Shown piece by piece: positions 52,967 to 60,677 of a DNA stretch of 64,000 bases (the stretch's first letter is position 1; every line of letters starts with the position of its first letter). The stretch is from an uncultured Roseobacter sp. (GTDB lineage Bacteria; Pseudomonadota; Alphaproteobacteria; Rhodobacterales; Rhodobacteraceae): positions 620,001 through 684,000 of the forward strand of contig NZ_CANMNK010000002.1 of NCBI RefSeq assembly GCF_947499265.1, given 5' to 3'. The notes under the pieces were generated by a model that was not told where the DNA came from, did not search any database, and saw nothing but the letters and a program-made list of their open reading frames with translations. The position numbers and the translations under genes are program-made.

Positions 52967-54742
<1,776 letters not shown>

Positions 54743-54778: not shown

Positions 54779-54997
54779 ATGACCCCTGGTGCGCGGGTCG
54801 CAGCGGCGATCGAGATCCTTGATGTGATCGCCGCAGGGGCCGCCGCCGAGCAGGCCCTGACCCGCTGGGCCGGATCGAAAGACCGCGCACCCTCGCGCGA
54901 TAATCCTACGCATCTCGATGTTCCGGTGAACCTTCAGGATGCCGCAGTGTTAGCGATCATCGCGCAATTCCCCGACACAAAGCGTCGCTTTGAGTAG
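54779..54997 (+). pseudogene. rsmB: rsmB remnant, N-terminal stub
   Basis: A 72-codon open frame starting 36 bases after guaB. Its first 35 to 40 residues (MTPGARVAAAIEILDVIAAG, then ALTRW and GSKDRA) match the NusB-like N-terminus of RsmB, the 16S rRNA m5C967 methyltransferase; the intact copy at 56553 has VTPAARISAAINLVDRILDG and ALAGW...AGSKDRA at the same places. Six residues between Trp and AGSKDRA are missing, and homology is lost after about 54926. Everything needed for catalysis is absent. It is best read as the front end of the original rsmB gene. Confidence 0.75.
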
Positions 54998-55220
54998 CGC
55001 GCTGGTTACTTAGGCCCTCAATTTTCAACGCTGACAGCTGTCTCCGCATTCCAAACGCCCTGCCGGTCATGGCTCTTTGAGCGTGCCGACAAAGACCGTC
55101 GATACTACTCATACATGTGCCGTTTGGCAGGCCAATAATTCATGATGGCTAAGGCTGACTTTCATCGTCGCGCACTACTTTCAGGTCCACAGTCAGATGC
55201 GCGGACAAGGTTGTCGGCGG
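54998..55220. other. Non-coding stretch after rsmB stub
   Basis: About 220 bases with no convincing gene. A short open frame beginning at 55142 runs on into the transglutaminase gene's opposite strand and does not look coding. Confidence 0.45.
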
Positions 55221-56075
55221 TCAGCTGCGCCAATGCGGGGTTTGAAGGCTGGCGATTAAGCCATCAAGAGCGTCGAGGTCAAAGGTCTCGGCGGTATCCA
55301 ACAGCTTTCCTGCAGCGGCGAGTTCGTCGCATTGAGCGATCGCCTCTCTGACAGCTTTTTTGTCTGCATCAGTCTGGTCACGCCAGCTATCCCAATCAGA
55401 AACCTCTTGCTTTGTCAGAGCCAAAAAGTCCCTTGCCAAGTTTATACGGACGAACCAAAGGCCCTTGGCGTCACCTTGCCCAAAATCCTCCAGGCGTGGG
55501 AAATCGTGGCCGAACTGCTCCCACACGTGCCAGGGGTACAAGAATTGCTCCTTCGGTAGGTCGTTCACATCAAAGGTGATCGACAGATGCTTTCGATGTT
55601 CTTCATCCAATTGGGCGTCGGCCATCTTCCACTCTTTGGTCGCAGCATCCTGATACTCACAGATCCAATGATCTTCGTAGGTTGGTGGGTGGAAATAGCG
55701 CGCGAAACCGCAACGAACACGGGCTGCAATGCCATGATGACGAAGCAGGGAGCAGGTCAACAGGGCATAGTCTCGACATGTTCCAATGGTCCGAAAAGAC
55801 GTATGCCGCGCTTGCGTGAGGGGTTTCTCTCCGAAGGCATGAACACTCGTCAGTCTTTCGGAGACCGGCAAGGTCGCACGCGATGCTCGAGTAATCTCCC
55901 CTGGCGGCTCAGCATATAGATGCGCGCCAAAGTAATCGTGCAAGAGGATGCCCTGCACCGTGGAGGTGACCGCCGATACGCCGCCAGGGACGACGTCAAA
56001 CGATCTGACGCATTCTTTCGGATCGCTCCATTCTCCGTGTCGAAGATAGAATTGAGACGCGTTTTGCTGGTGCAT
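55221..56075 (-). CDS. Transglutaminase-like (protease-fold) protein
   Basis: A 284-residue protein with a transglutaminase-core catalytic triad: Cys100 (TIGTCRDYALLTCSLLRHHGI), His136 (YEDHWICEY) and Asp153 (WKMADAQLD). No signal peptide is present. Bacterial proteins of this core are mostly peptidases or amidases, not crosslinking enzymes. The start at 56075 has an AGGA site five bases before; a GTG at 56096 is an alternative. It lies opposite to guaB and to the rsmB copies, inside the interrupted rsmB locus, so it likely arrived with the foreign segment. Confidence 0.8.
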   Translation of the reverse strand: MHQQNASQFYLRHGEWSDPKECVRSFDVVPGGVSAVTSTVQGILLHDYFGAHLYAEPPGEITRASRATLPVSERLTSVHAFGEKPLTQARHTSFRTIGTCRDYALLTCSLLRHHGIAARVRCGFARYFHPPTYEDHWICEYQDAATKEWKMADAQLDEEHRKHLSITFDVNDLPKEQFLYPWHVWEQFGHDFPRLEDFGQGDAKGLWFVRINLARDFLALTKQEVSDWDSWRDQTDADKKAVREAIAQCDELAAAGKLLDTAETFDLDALDGLIASLQTPHWRS

Positions 56076-56552
56076 GGGGATCCTAATACGCTGCACGGCA
56101 TGCTATCGCCCAGATCCCGCACTGAAAAGGAGCGTTTATATAAAGCTTGTGTCTTCACGCGCCATCAGATTGGGGGCAACACTACCTATTTTGGCGTTGG
56201 GTTGACGGTTGAGGTTCGCTCAGATCGGACGTCTAGTGCCCCTCGTGGCCCAGTAGAGAAGGCATTTGGTGCGGGCGCAAATCGCGGCGCGTTGACCTCG
56301 AACAATACGGGGCAGGATGTGCTTATCTTACGTCAGCGCAGCCCTGCGGTTGTCCATAGAGTGCTTCGGCGCGGGATCCTGTTCCGTTGGCATTTTACCA
56401 ATGCATAGCGGCCGATGCATGCCGCTTGGCCGATAGAATTTCTGGCGCATTTTCAAATTGGCGGGTGATCTACCGTTTCCACGCTGGTCCCGCCCATTGC
56501 TCCTGTATATGGAGTTTGCGATTGGAATTTAGCTGAGTTGGATGAGAGTTTC
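56076..56552. other. Uncertain stretch between transglutaminase and rsmB
   Basis: About 480 bases. A plus-strand open frame ends at 56408 (its last 80 codons read like GVGLTVEVRSDRTSS... and end FRWHFTNA) but matches no family I know and has no clear start. Promoters for the two divergent genes probably lie here. No insertion-sequence ends or repeats were seen. Confidence 0.4.
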
Positions 56553-57722
56553 GTGACACCTGCAGCACGTATAAGCGCGGCGATCAACTTGGTAGATCGT
56601 ATTTTGGACGGTGAACTGGCAGATCGTGCTCTGGCCGGGTGGGGGCGCAAGAACCGGTATGCTGGTTCGAAGGACCGCGCTGCGATCGCAGATCTGGTAT
56701 ATGATGTTCTCCGGCGCAAGCGAAGCCTGGCAGCGCTCGGTGGCGGTGAGACGGGAAGGGCTTTGTTGCTCGGATATGTGAGGGAGGTGGGGTCAGCGCC
56801 TGACTCCCTCTTTGGTGCAGGTCCATATGCCCCTTTCGAGTTAACAGATGCAGAACGGTCCAATGGGCGTTTGCCCGAAGCAAACAGCAGCGAAAGCGCG
56901 GATTTTCCAGAGTGGCTCTGGCCCGACATTCAGACCTCTCTGGGCGAGCGCGCACAACAGGTTGCCGAGCAGATGCGAAGGCGGGCTCCGGTTCATCTTA
57001 GGGTCAATCTGGCGCGATTGGATAGAGATAGCGCAATTGAGAAACTGTCTTCGGAAGGGATAGCTGCCCGTTCACATGCTCTTTCTCCCTCGGCTGTCGA
57101 GGTCATCGAGGGTGCAAGGAAGATCAAAAATGCGCGCTCGTATCTCGACGGGAGGATCGAGCTGCAAGATGCTTCATCTCAAGCGGTTGCGGACATGGTG
57201 CCGATAGAGACCGGTGAAAAACTGTTGGATTTTTGTGCCGGAGGCGGAGGGAAGACCTTGGCGATTGCAGGCCGGGTCGAGGGTACTTTTTTTGCCTATG
57301 ATGTGGATCAAAGAAGGATGAAAGATCTACCTTCACGTGCCGCCCGGGCCGAGGTGACAGTAAACTTGCTATCGGGGCCTGAGGTGAAGCAGAAATCTCC
57401 CTATGATACCATTCTCATAGATGCACCATGCTCAGGTAGCGGCTCCTGGCGCCGTGACCCTCAGGGCAAATGGTTGCTGACACGCGAGAAGTTAAGTCGA
57501 ATTTTGGAAATTCAGCAAGAAATCTTGGATCAATCAGCCCCAATGGTCAGATCACAAGGCCATTTGGTTTATGCGACATGTTCCTTGCTGGAGTGCGAAA
57601 ATGATCGCCAGGTTGATGCGTTCCTGTCGCGCCACCGTGAATACTCTCTCAAAACCCAAAAACGGTTCACACCGCTGGATGGTGGAGACGGTTTTTATTG
57701 CGCCGTTCTACGTCGAGATTGA
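56553..57722 (+). CDS. rsmB: 16S rRNA m5C967 methyltransferase RsmB, divergent (xenologous) copy
   Basis: A 389-residue enzyme with an N-terminal NusB-like domain (about 1-130) and a C-terminal methyltransferase domain. The SAM site DFCAGGGGKT is at 226-235; motif IV has DAPCSGSGSWRR with Cys293, and motif VI YATCSLLECEN has the catalytic Cys343. It should methylate C967 of 16S rRNA. Codon use is visibly more A/T-rich at third positions than in guaB or recA, and the protein differs from the flanking remnants. The start is taken as GTG 56553, preceded by gagag; TTG 56538 is an alternative. Confidence 0.88.
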   Translation: MTPAARISAAINLVDRILDGELADRALAGWGRKNRYAGSKDRAAIADLVYDVLRRKRSLAALGGGETGRALLLGYVREVGSAPDSLFGAGPYAPFELTDAERSNGRLPEANSSESADFPEWLWPDIQTSLGERAQQVAEQMRRRAPVHLRVNLARLDRDSAIEKLSSEGIAARSHALSPSAVEVIEGARKIKNARSYLDGRIELQDASSQAVADMVPIETGEKLLDFCAGGGGKTLAIAGRVEGTFFAYDVDQRRMKDLPSRAARAEVTVNLLSGPEVKQKSPYDTILIDAPCSGSGSWRRDPQGKWLLTREKLSRILEIQQEILDQSAPMVRSQGHLVYATCSLLECENDRQVDAFLSRHREYSLKTQKRFTPLDGGDGFYCAVLRRD

Positions 57723-58043
57723 TATGACCGCATATCCGTCTGAACCGGAGGTGGTTTGGCGCTTTACCTGATTTAGAAACATGTTTTATCGCGCGGGTTA
57801 TGACGGACTGGCTCACTCGACAAAGCGCTTCTATTGCCACTTCACCGGCGCATACATTTGCACGCAACCTATATGCCCCTTGTTCCCGAGGGTAATGCCA
57901 GTGGCGGCGGTACCGGGGCGCAATGTCACCACAGATGAAATCGTTTCCGCCCGCATGGCCAATCTGCCTATGCGCGCATCGGGAGGATGCCCCAATCGAG
58001 CGGGTGGCAACCGAAACGGTTCGCAAGCATGCCCCGTCGATCT
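57723..58043. other. Decayed stretch between the rsmB copies
   Basis: About 320 bases without a recognised gene. The minus strand at 57831-57956 holds a 41-codon frame with protein-like composition (TLRPGTAATGITLGNKGHIG...), possibly the end of a broken gene or a small protein. Nothing else is supported. Confidence 0.4.
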
Positions 58044-58273
58044 GGTGCGCGGCGGCGCGTCTTCGGAATGACATTTTAGACGCAGCGAGAGAGCTTGTTC
58101 ATTCCTCCGGCTGGTTGGTTTATGCGACCTCATCGGTCCTGCGGTGTGAAAACGAGGATCGGATCGCGGTCTTCCTGCATCGAAATATCCAATGGAAATG
58201 CACTTTTGAACGCCGGTTTGGCGTAACGGACACAGGTGATGGTTTTTTTACAGCACACTTGACGCGCGTGTGA
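58044..58273 (+). pseudogene. rsmB: rsmB remnant, C-terminal end
   Basis: About 76 codons match the last part of RsmB: NDILDAARELV, then WLVYATSSVLRCENEDRI, then FERRFGVTDTGDGFFTAHLTRV and a stop at 58271-58273. The intact copy has EILDQSAPMV, HLVYATCSLLECENDRQV and FTPLDGGDGFYCAVLRRD at the same places. In the remnant the catalytic TCS Cys reads SS (Ser), so it could not work even if expressed. The start is lost. It is most simply the back end of the native gene whose front end lies at 54779. Confidence 0.75.
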
Positions 58274-58313
58274 TGCTGTTCATACTCAACCAAAACGAGC
58301 ATTGCCGTACGTG

Positions 58314-58379: not shown

Positions 58380-60677
58380 TTGCCGCGCAGCGCACTTACA
58401 CCATCCAGACTAGCTCGCGTTGCCCTAAGGGCGCAAAAGCGCTTGGGCACCCTCGTTCTGGTGGCCGTCTTGTTGGGAATTTTGGCCTTGGCTTCGCCAG
58501 ATCTCTTGCTGCGCCGGGCCTTGTTTGCGGGATGTCTGACGCTGCTTGGGATGAGCTGCGTGTTGATGTGGATGGCCAAGAGCTTTGAGCGCCGCAGTGC
58601 CGCCACTGTCGCGGTCTTATCTGAATTCATCAGCAAAGACGCCTCGCCCAGTTTTCTCGCAACCAAGGACGGCGAAATTCTCTCGGCGAACCTCGCGGCA
58701 CGCAAACGCTTCGAAGCGGATATTGAGGAAACCGTCGGCGGCACCTTGAAAAACACATTGGCCAATCCTGGCGGCATCCTGTTCCGGCTGCAAACACGCT
58801 CAGATACTGAAGGATCCGCGCGTGAGGATTTGGTCACGCGCCGCGGGCATCTGCGGCTGTCCGTGCATCATGCCGGATCGGAGGCCTATCTTTGGCGCCT
58901 TGAAGATGTGGCAAGCGCGCAGCAAAGCGCCGAAGGGCCCACGCTGCCGATGATCCTTGTCGGGCGTACCAATGCGGTATTGTACATGAACGAGCAGGCC
59001 CGCAAGCTTGCGGGTGGGCGCATCAAGACACTGGATCGGCTGTTCAAGCAATTGCCGGTTGTGCCGGGAACCGTCTGCGACATCACGGGCGTCGAGGGAC
59101 CAACACGCGCGTTGGTCAGTGAGGTCGACGCCGGCGCCGGACGCCGGGCGCTCTATTTGCTGCCGCCCGGTGCGGAGACCATGTCCAAGGACGGCTGGAA
59201 CGTATTTCAGGATCTGCCCGTCCCCTTGCTCAAGGTCAGCCCCGATGGCGACGTGCAGGCCTATAACCGGCTGGCCGCGAGCTTGATTGGCGTCTCGCTC
59301 AAGGATCAGGTGCATTTGTCGGATCTGATGGAAGGTCTGGGACGGTCGATCACCGGATGGCTGTCGGAAACGCTCGCTGGACGCGCGGCACAGCAATCGG
59401 AGTTCCTGCGTCTCAAGCGCACAGATAAGGAAGTCTACGTGCAGGTCACGCTGAACCGCGTCACTGAGGAGGGCAAGCCCGCATTGATCGCGGTTCTGAA
59501 CGATGCGACCGAGCTGAAATCACTGGAGGCACAATTCGTCCAAAGCCAGAAAATGCAAGCGATCGGGCAATTGGCCGGCGGTGTGGCGCATGACTTCAAC
59601 AATCTGCTGACGGCGATTTCCGGCCACTGCGACCTGCTGCTGTTGCGCCACGATCAGGGTGACCCGGACTTCAGCGACCTGGTTCAGATTAATCAGAACG
59701 CGAACCGGGCCGCAGCCCTTGTGGGTCAGTTGCTGGCTTTCTCGCGCAAACAAACCCTGCGGCCTGAAACCCTCGACATGCGGGATACGCTGTCAGATCT
59801 GACGCATCTGCTGAACCGCCTGGTGGGCGAAAAGATCACGCTGACGCTCAGCCATGATCCGGTGCTTGCCCCCATTCGTGCGGACAAGCGGCAGCTGGAA
59901 CAGGTGCTGATGAACCTTGTGGTCAATGCGCGTGATGCGATGCCGCAAGGGGGGCAGATCCGGATTGTGACCGAATGCACGGATCTCAATGAGGCGCTGG
60001 AGCGTGACCGCGTCACCGTACCCGTGGGGCGCTATGTCACGGTACAGGTCTCCGACGACGGTGTGGGTATTCCTTCAGACAAGTTGCAAAAGGTGTTCGA
60101 GCCGTTTTTCACCACGAAACGCACAGGCGAGGGGACGGGCCTTGGTCTGTCGACGGCCTACGGCATTATCAAGCAGACCGGCGGCTATATTTTTGTCGAC
60201 AGTGTGGTGGGGACGGGGACGAAATTTACCCTCTACTTCCCCGTGCTGGAAGCCTCCGAAGTGCCGACACCGGTCGAAAAGCAGATAGAAGCCAAACCTG
60301 CTGCGAAACATGGGGATGGTGTCATCCTGCTTGTTGAGGATGAGGCGCCCGTGCGCGCCTTTGCCAGCCGGGCGCTGCGGCTGCGTGGCTACACGGTGCT
60401 GGAAGCGGATTCCGCAGAGGCGGCTTTGAAGACGTTGGAGGATGCCTCGCTAAACGTCGACGTCTTTGTCACCGATGTGGTCATGCCCGGCATGGATGGC
60501 CCAAGTTGGGTGCGGGAGGCCTTGAAGGAGCGTCCCGGCGTGCGGGTGGTGTTTGTGTCAGGCTATGCCGAGGACAGTTTTGGCGAGACCCAGATCAAAA
60601 TCCCGAATTCGGTGTTTCTGCCGAAGCCCTTCTCCCTGAATGATCTTACCGACACGGTGCATCAACAGCTGCACTGA
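58380..60677 (+). CDS. cckA: Cell-cycle hybrid histidine kinase CckA
   Basis: A 765-residue hybrid kinase. Two membrane segments lie near the N-terminus (about 22-40 and 45-65), followed by two PAS-like regions, a HisKA H-box with His404 (GGVAHDFNNLLTAI), a GHKL ATPase (NLVVNARDA, DDGVGIP, GTGLGLST) and a C-terminal receiver with phosphoacceptor Asp699 (VTDVVMPG). This matches CckA of the CckA-ChpT-CtrA relay. Position before recA is typical. The start is TTG 58380, with gggga upstream; no in-frame ATG is near. Confidence 0.92.
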   Translation: MPRSALTPSRLARVALRAQKRLGTLVLVAVLLGILALASPDLLLRRALFAGCLTLLGMSCVLMWMAKSFERRSAATVAVLSEFISKDASPSFLATKDGEILSANLAARKRFEADIEETVGGTLKNTLANPGGILFRLQTRSDTEGSAREDLVTRRGHLRLSVHHAGSEAYLWRLEDVASAQQSAEGPTLPMILVGRTNAVLYMNEQARKLAGGRIKTLDRLFKQLPVVPGTVCDITGVEGPTRALVSEVDAGAGRRALYLLPPGAETMSKDGWNVFQDLPVPLLKVSPDGDVQAYNRLAASLIGVSLKDQVHLSDLMEGLGRSITGWLSETLAGRAAQQSEFLRLKRTDKEVYVQVTLNRVTEEGKPALIAVLNDATELKSLEAQFVQSQKMQAIGQLAGGVAHDFNNLLTAISGHCDLLLLRHDQGDPDFSDLVQINQNANRAAALVGQLLAFSRKQTLRPETLDMRDTLSDLTHLLNRLVGEKITLTLSHDPVLAPIRADKRQLEQVLMNLVVNARDAMPQGGQIRIVTECTDLNEALERDRVTVPVGRYVTVQVSDDGVGIPSDKLQKVFEPFFTTKRTGEGTGLGLSTAYGIIKQTGGYIFVDSVVGTGTKFTLYFPVLEASEVPTPVEKQIEAKPAAKHGDGVILLVEDEAPVRAFASRALRLRGYTVLEADSAEAALKTLEDASLNVDVFVTDVVMPGMDGPSWVREALKERPGVRVVFVSGYAEDSFGETQIKIPNSVFLPKPFSLNDLTDTVHQQLH

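Follow-up and report, generated by a model that had tools for sequence, protein, structure and literature searches.

The original account of in situ displacement is reportedly that of Omelchenko et al. from 2003. As a rule, trees are the only evidence that a foreign homologue has displaced a gene, since the displaced copy has already disappeared. Such xenologous gene displacement, the in situ form included, is a known kind of event (PMC1274311). A related case is the exchange of type VI effector modules in Vibrio cholerae: there, an incoming module displaces old sequence and remnants are left, and homology-facilitated illegitimate recombination is proposed for the clusters (PMC5361080). Here we describe the rsmB locus of an uncultured Roseobacter sp. 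(genome G000, 5.23 Mb, completeness 100), located between guaB and cckA in a stretch of 64 kb (G000:C2:620001-684000), which is referred to as the window below. The locus contains a complete but divergent rsmB gene (called D-type in the following) lying within relics of the native gene, and very probably represents an in situ xenologous displacement of rsmB, caught part-way. RsmB (Fmu) is the 16S rRNA m5C967 methyltransferase.

As in other xenologous displacements, an acquired homologue has supplanted the native orthologue; in the present case it did so in the original position on the chromosome. The locus differs from them in that the foreign gene is found within the displaced gene, with relics on both sides, and in that four branches of one genus are concerned. 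The type VI clusters involve competition genes of differing function, whereas the present case concerns a single-copy housekeeping enzyme that gives way to another version of the same enzyme. In the literature on the gene and on displacement with relics, no rsmB displacement in Roseobacter is described in the titles and opening lines of abstracts among the matches listed. The kind of event is known; its preservation here is unusual and its recurrence within the genus is probable.

Native rsmB in G000 was traced with a profile built from 14 native Roseobacter rsmB genes and run over the window by nhmmer. The profile recovers four collinear native pieces (relics a to d, Table 1), with the intact rsmB between the second and the third. 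Relic a, which reaches 75% identity to native congeners by tblastn, is joined to relic b where about 435 nt (net) of the native gene have been lost internally, and an in-frame stop follows at 54995. Relics c and d are in different reading frames. Motif IV has gone from the native relic in an internal deletion of about 90 nt, and motif VI of relic d reads YATSS as against YATCS, a Cys-to-Ser change; the stop codon of relic d is at 58271–58273. We take the cysteines of motifs IV and VI to be the catalytic residues of RsmB. The only other RsmB-like place in the G000 genome is a 28% match over residues 182–369, and native rsmB otherwise persists as broken pieces only. The native orthologue is lost or inactivated in G000. 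The initial annotation had described three rsmB stretches in this order, and both the order and, closely, the coordinates were recovered: a stub open reading frame (ORF) at 54779–54997, the gene with GTG start from 56553 to 57722, and a remnant reaching 58273.

Table 1. Features of the rsmB locus (positions in the window).
Feature	Coordinates	Strand	Details
guaB (IMP dehydrogenase), left flank	53210..54742	+	PF00478 E 2e-154
Relic a: native codons 1-48, 18-nt deletion	54779..54904	+	nhmmer native nt 1-141, E 3.3e-25
Relic b: native nt 587-681	54912..55006	+	weak match; nhmmer nt 581-680 at 54906-55005, E 1.8e-5
Inserted segment, ~2.9 kb	55007..57895	.	right end uncertain by ~10 nt
Transglutaminase-like ORF, insert cargo	55221..56096	-	PF01841 E 1.5e-6
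Foreign D-type rsmB, intact, 389 aa	56553..57722	+	GTG start; PF01189 E 8e-33; PF22458
Relic c: native nt ~699-861	57896..58059	+	nhmmer nt 701-853 at 57899-58048, E 1.4e-11
Relic d: native codons 315-386 + stop	58055..58273	+	nhmmer nt 952-1157 at 58064-58269, E 6.1e-42
Promoter-like block at/just past native rsmB 3' end, predicted for cckA	58256..58290	+	TTGACG 58259-58264, 16 nt, CATACT 58281-58286
CtrA-type full site TTAA-N7-TTAA	58315..58329	+	sole one in the 64-kb window; 19/19 genomes
cckA, right flank	58380..60677	+	HisKA, HATPase, response-regulator domains

Relics b and c were also aligned locally to six native references singly (null distribution from 200 shuffles, G004 only). The right piece scores 61 (G004), 59, 49, 47, 46 and 32, five of the six values exceeding the shuffle maximum of 40, and starts at 57891–57906, which corresponds to nt 688–705 in the six natives. 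Scores for the left piece are 74 (G004), 42, 30, 30, 26 and 26 with a shuffle maximum of 33, exceeded by two of the six; this piece extends to 55006 (native nt 681) with G004, to 55005 with G012 and to 54964–54988 with the other four. As native middle pieces lie on both sides of the segment, it was inserted, and the gaps are separate internal deletions. From these alignments, about 2.9 kb is judged to have entered native rsmB at approximately nt 681–699, near motif I, which binds S-adenosylmethionine. Replacement of the middle of the native gene by the segment, as initially proposed, is not supported, although the left of the two middle pieces is a weak match. With native middle pieces on both sides, we also give little credence to a homologous recombination within rsmB that swapped the native centre for a foreign centre with cargo. 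It would leave both native ends flanking the foreign gene, as found, but it predicts a chimeric gene, while the foreign gene has its full reading frame, start and stop codons included.

The new copy is foreign to the host clade and stands at the native locus, as trees, approximately unbiased (AU) tests and gene order demonstrate. In a 62-row RsmB tree, the D clade has a support of 100/99. Within it the intact G000 copy groups with those of G435 and G436 (metagenome-assembled genomes of Roseovarius) and G437 (uncultured Rhodobacteraceae), again with 100/99, and the native pseudogene row groups with the natives of G016 and G004 (100/96). AU tests reject a position of the intact copy inside the native Roseobacter clade (p 1.4e-4) or as sister of the pseudogene (p 5.5e-5). 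When the scars were placed separately, in a stub-only tree (42 columns) and a remnant-only tree (72 columns), both fell with the natives, the remnant with G016/G004 (100/96). Over 72 columns, the stub shares 62.5–70.8% identity with natives, compared with 47.2% with the intact copy; for the remnant the values are 40.9–55.5% and 36.4% (110 columns, partly non-relic sequence). The view of the initial annotation that the intact copy is foreign and both scars are native is thereby upheld, by the very tree it had proposed: stub and remnant join the native Roseobacter sequences, and the intact copy falls outside them.

Gene order was compared in a genus sample of 19 Roseobacter genomes, G000 and 18 congeners, as had also been suggested at the outset. 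In 13 of the 18 congeners, native rsmB is flanked by guaB and cckA. It adjoins cckA in 14, with guaB directly 5' in 13 of these. In the remaining genome, G010, guaB and rsmB-cckA are on separate contigs, and the guaB link is therefore not universal. The other four congeners (G002, G007, G014 and G015) have a D-type rsmB at the locus instead. The native copies (n = 14) show a mean identity to one another of 62.0% (55.3–88.7), the D copies of the genus (n = 5) are 63–96% identical, and native versus D identity is 47.5%.

No full-length RsmB other than the D-type copy was found in the G000 genome. This copy has the RsmB/F catalytic domain (PF01189) and keeps motif I, motif IV (DAPCSGSG) and motif VI (YATCS); ORF calling offers an alternative start, TTG at 56538. 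The structural model (42-row alignment) has a predicted local distance difference test score (pLDDT) of 96.6 and a predicted template modelling score (pTM) of 0.92. Its best fold match is E. coli Fmu/RsmB, 1sqf, with a template modelling score of 0.81 (query length) and 26% identity over 441 columns including gaps. According to the model, D-type RsmB matches the overall Fmu fold including the N-terminal helical domain; Pfam gave no match to NusB for the protein. It resembles RsmB/Fmu (PDB 1sqf/1sqg) in this fold match and in having both cysteine motifs. It differs in length (389 aa versus 429 in the PDB chain) and in missing the NCBIfam RsmB equivalog cut-offs, with 202.7 versus 375 bits for NF008149 and 182.1 versus 269 for TIGR00563. 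The native protein of congener G005 is also below them (186.6 and 145.9, respectively). Compared with G435, the pairwise rates are 0.128 nonsynonymous substitutions per site (dN) and 1.09 synonymous ones (dS), a ratio that speaks less directly for the D-type copy as a replacement in that it spans the entire lineage and does not cover the time since transfer alone. The conserved motifs and the low pairwise dN/dS would fit a D-type copy that has taken over the function.

Might the native gene have decayed first, the D-type copy arriving later at the same place? Several deletions and the Cys-to-Ser change in motif VI of the relics fit such a course. However, all 19 genus genomes keep one full-length RsmB, so that a long gap with no enzyme seems unlikely, and the order of events is unreadable from the sequence; we consider decay before arrival to be improbable.

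'Foreign' here means another lineage within Rhodobacteraceae, not a source beyond the family. Between G000 and G435/G436, RsmB is 79–80% identical, CckA 60% and RecA 86%. A nearer D-type RsmB (94%) occurs in an uncultured Roseobacter (P0001). We searched a family sample of 394 Rhodobacteraceae genomes (roughly one for each genus, with up to four candidates scored in any one genome). Outside the genus, three of them score clearly as D-type (70, 64 and 58%), the next reaching 54%. The 77-row D set of a 181-row tree includes Cognatishimia, Cognatiyoonia, Yoonia, Puniceibacterium, Pseudorhodobacter, Litoreibacter and Sedimentitalea. By the family profile, none of the D carriers of other genera has a significant native scar; their extra matches have E values of 0.025–0.073. 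In G437, about 9 kb of other genes lie between D-type rsmB and cckA (L132). In G335 the two genes are on different contigs, with no rsmB beside cckA in the stretch read (L102, L133).

Other vehicles were considered. A plasmid source of D-type rsmB was rejected, the best plasmid match being 48.8%, as was a phage source, with 24–34% among the matches listed (10 of 35 phage records). Flanking DNA travelling with the gene was rejected as well: the similarity upstream in G007, G014 and G437 is guaB itself (pairs scoring above 45). In this flank comparison the near-identical relatives G002–G015 and G435–G436 were set aside. A weak similarity of G002/G015 to G007 was seen at −128 to −45, with scores of 51 and 46 (null maxima 24 and 23).

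The displacement at the rsmB locus was probably repeated within the genus. All four other carriers have a native 3' remnant before cckA, with E values of 7.1e-19 (G002), 1.6e-16 (G015), 5.6e-16 (G007) and 3.2e-12 (G014). The D gene of G002 and G015 has the opposite orientation and is accompanied by three catabolic-looking ORFs, none of which is present in G007 or G014. These ORFs, between guaB and rsmB (L033, L034), were named by eye as deacetylase-like, M24-peptidase-like and class III aminotransferase-like. As a species tree we used rpoB and carB, with ORFs picked by similarity and G001 lacking a carB row. On this tree the D carriers need four changes (G000; G007; G002 with G015; G014), three of them forced by starred branches. 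A single clade of all five carriers is rejected (p 2e-69), and so is one of the four (p 3e-87). The best remnant scores are 150 for G000 with G016, 66 for G007 with G005 (next 37), 78 for G002 with G008 (next 72), 77 for G015 with G012 (then G008 with 72) and 76 for G014 with G012 and G006 (G008 with 75). Each carrier's remnant thus scores best against a native from its own half of the species tree. The D copies of G007 and G002 share 79.7% identity, compared with a mean of 63.3% (61.2–67.7) for natives of one of these two clades against the other. At least these D copies therefore post-date the clade split.

That both versions occur at one locus within one genus would also follow from an ancient tandem duplication, a Roseobacter ancestor having both versions adjacent and its lineages losing either one. 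A relative with two complete rsmB genes, named in the initial annotation as counterevidence to displacement, was looked for. No two full-length copies were found in the 19 Roseobacter genomes or in the six other D-type genomes searched. In the family sample, 371 of 394 genomes matched RsmB at E ≤ 1e-60, and each of these showed one RsmB. Moreover, the intact D gene of G000 sits within the native relic, the D copies of G007 and G002 are closer than natives across the same clades, and the G000 copy has its sisters in other lineages; a single clade of the five D copies of the genus is rejected (AU test, p 0.005). A tandem ancestor is extremely unlikely on these grounds.

The same test sets the number of D-type sources at two at least; the G000 copy is of different origin from the other four. 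Whether the latter go back to one event is less clear-cut. A single D entry for G002, G015, G007 and G014, followed by interspecies recombination through the guaB and cckA flanks, with G000 alone separate, would account for the grouping of their four D copies in the 62-row tree (99/84), for the approximately 80% identity among G002, G015 and G007, for the conserved flanks and for the small margins among remnant scores. It is at odds with the remnants scoring best with natives of the carrier's own tree half and being mutually dissimilar except in the sisters G002 and G015, and with the position of the G014 copy beside that of Cognatiyoonia in the 181-row quick tree, where the Shimodaira–Hasegawa-like approximate likelihood ratio test (SH-aLRT) gives 96. 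We regard this course as rather unlikely, though worth keeping in mind.

Several observations weigh against repeated in situ displacement by insertion inside the native gene. Relic b is weak (E 1.8e-5), and four of six natives score 26–30 with it, inside the shuffle range. No direct or inverted 8-mers are shared within about 100–120 nt around both junctions, and with no junction repeat the entry into exactly this gene is unexplained. The transglutaminase-like gene of the segment does not lie beside rsmB at the other loci searched and may therefore have arrived separately. There is no significant 5' relic in G007, G014 or G015, and a weak one only in G002 (E 0.0023), so the inside-insertion geometry is confined to G000. 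Clade A, which holds G000 and G007, is not starred (90/99). The margins of the clade B remnants are small (78 versus 72 for G002, 77 versus 72 for G015, 76/76/75 for G014). Identities for G000–G002 (65.8), G000–G014 (62.7), G000–G007 (66.8) and G014–G002 (69.9) correspond to approximately native-level distances; late spread is therefore evident only for G007 versus G002/G015, and less so for G014 (73.8). Finally, the 62-row tree unites the natives of G008 and G005 (93/85), contrary to the species tree, and native rsmB may itself be recombining.

The inserted segment has a G+C content of 54.3%, compared with 60.6% for the window; one of 245 windows of such length is equally low. The initial annotation had described the intact rsmB as more AT-rich. 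Integrase or transposase domains were absent from the three insert ORFs scanned. No target-site repeats were seen at the junctions, around which no 8-mers are shared. The transglutaminase-like gene has no match in any of the 18 congeners (E ≤ 1e-5) or, at E ≤ 1e-20, among the remaining 393 genomes of the family sample. In a protein search, its product was found with 98% identity in an uncultured Roseobacter and with at most 69% elsewhere (62% in Tateyamaria armeniaca).

The 3' scar ends in a promoter-like block. The pattern CACTTGACG-18-TACTCAAC/TATTCAAC is present in all 19 Roseobacter genomes including the five D carriers, and TTGACG begins 118–124 nt before the cckA start used in each of them. 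Further downstream lies one TTAA(N7)TTAA motif, a CtrA full site (PMC6180460). Mononucleotide shuffles of the window contain this motif 0.135 times on average (maximum 2). Its position near a −35/−10 pair fits the pattern of a CtrA-controlled cckA promoter, predicted from sequence for all 19 Roseobacter genomes. CtrA feedback on the gene of its own kinase, cckA, is possible. In other genera, a CtrA-like site (spacer 6 or 7) occurs at 13 of 15 loci and the strict promoter pattern at 2 of 15. The site is found 34–78 nt past rsmB in 10 native-type loci (two have no site) and 193–290 nt past it in three D-type loci. The longer distance in the latter (L103, L135, L136) perhaps hints at older scars.

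The 3' scar may have been kept by the embedded cckA promoter. In carriers, 12–13 of 13 block positions match the chosen native. Four native pairs, however, conserve the block equally (13/13), and by consensus alone the region is not above chance, with 3 promoter-like sites versus 2.1 expected. Over the 160 nt upstream of the block, carriers are 56–73% identical versus 69–76% in the four native pairs. As G000, G002, G015 and G007 have values of 66–73% and only G014 (56%) is clearly lower, the upstream contrast is clear for G014 alone, and special retention of the block is therefore suggestive only.

For in situ displacement we envisage the following course. The segment, which carries the transglutaminase-like gene together with an entire rsmB of D-type, landed inside native rsmB; this single insertion would have broken the native gene and supplied the substitute at once. 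Internal deletions eroded both native halves. As the last native rsmB codons would hold the −35 part of the cckA promoter, the pseudogene may erode only that far. Gene transfer agents are common in Rhodobacteraceae. The DNA most likely entered by transformation or a gene transfer agent, with illegitimate or homology-facilitated joining. Homology-facilitated illegitimate recombination is a possible route, as outlined in two studies (PMC3240628; PMC5361080). Chance alone would hardly have placed the segment in this one gene; either homology would have to guide such events, or selection would have to retain only these.

A wider proposal can be made only tentatively, and we doubt it more than we believe it: D-type rsmB could be a travelling housekeeping gene that repeatedly enters roseobacters and displaces the resident rsmB at its own locus, either because an insertion within the resident gene destroys the old copy and provides its successor in a single event or because the D version is advantageous, e.g. 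through altered ribosome modification. At the locus described here, old and new copies are visible side by side, the insertion point can be read, and relatives show other stages. The way in which a cell exchanges a housekeeping gene of the informational class, and whether it does so in one step, can therefore be put to the test, as can the question of whether the embedded promoter of the cell-cycle kinase gene cckA preserves the end of the pseudogene.

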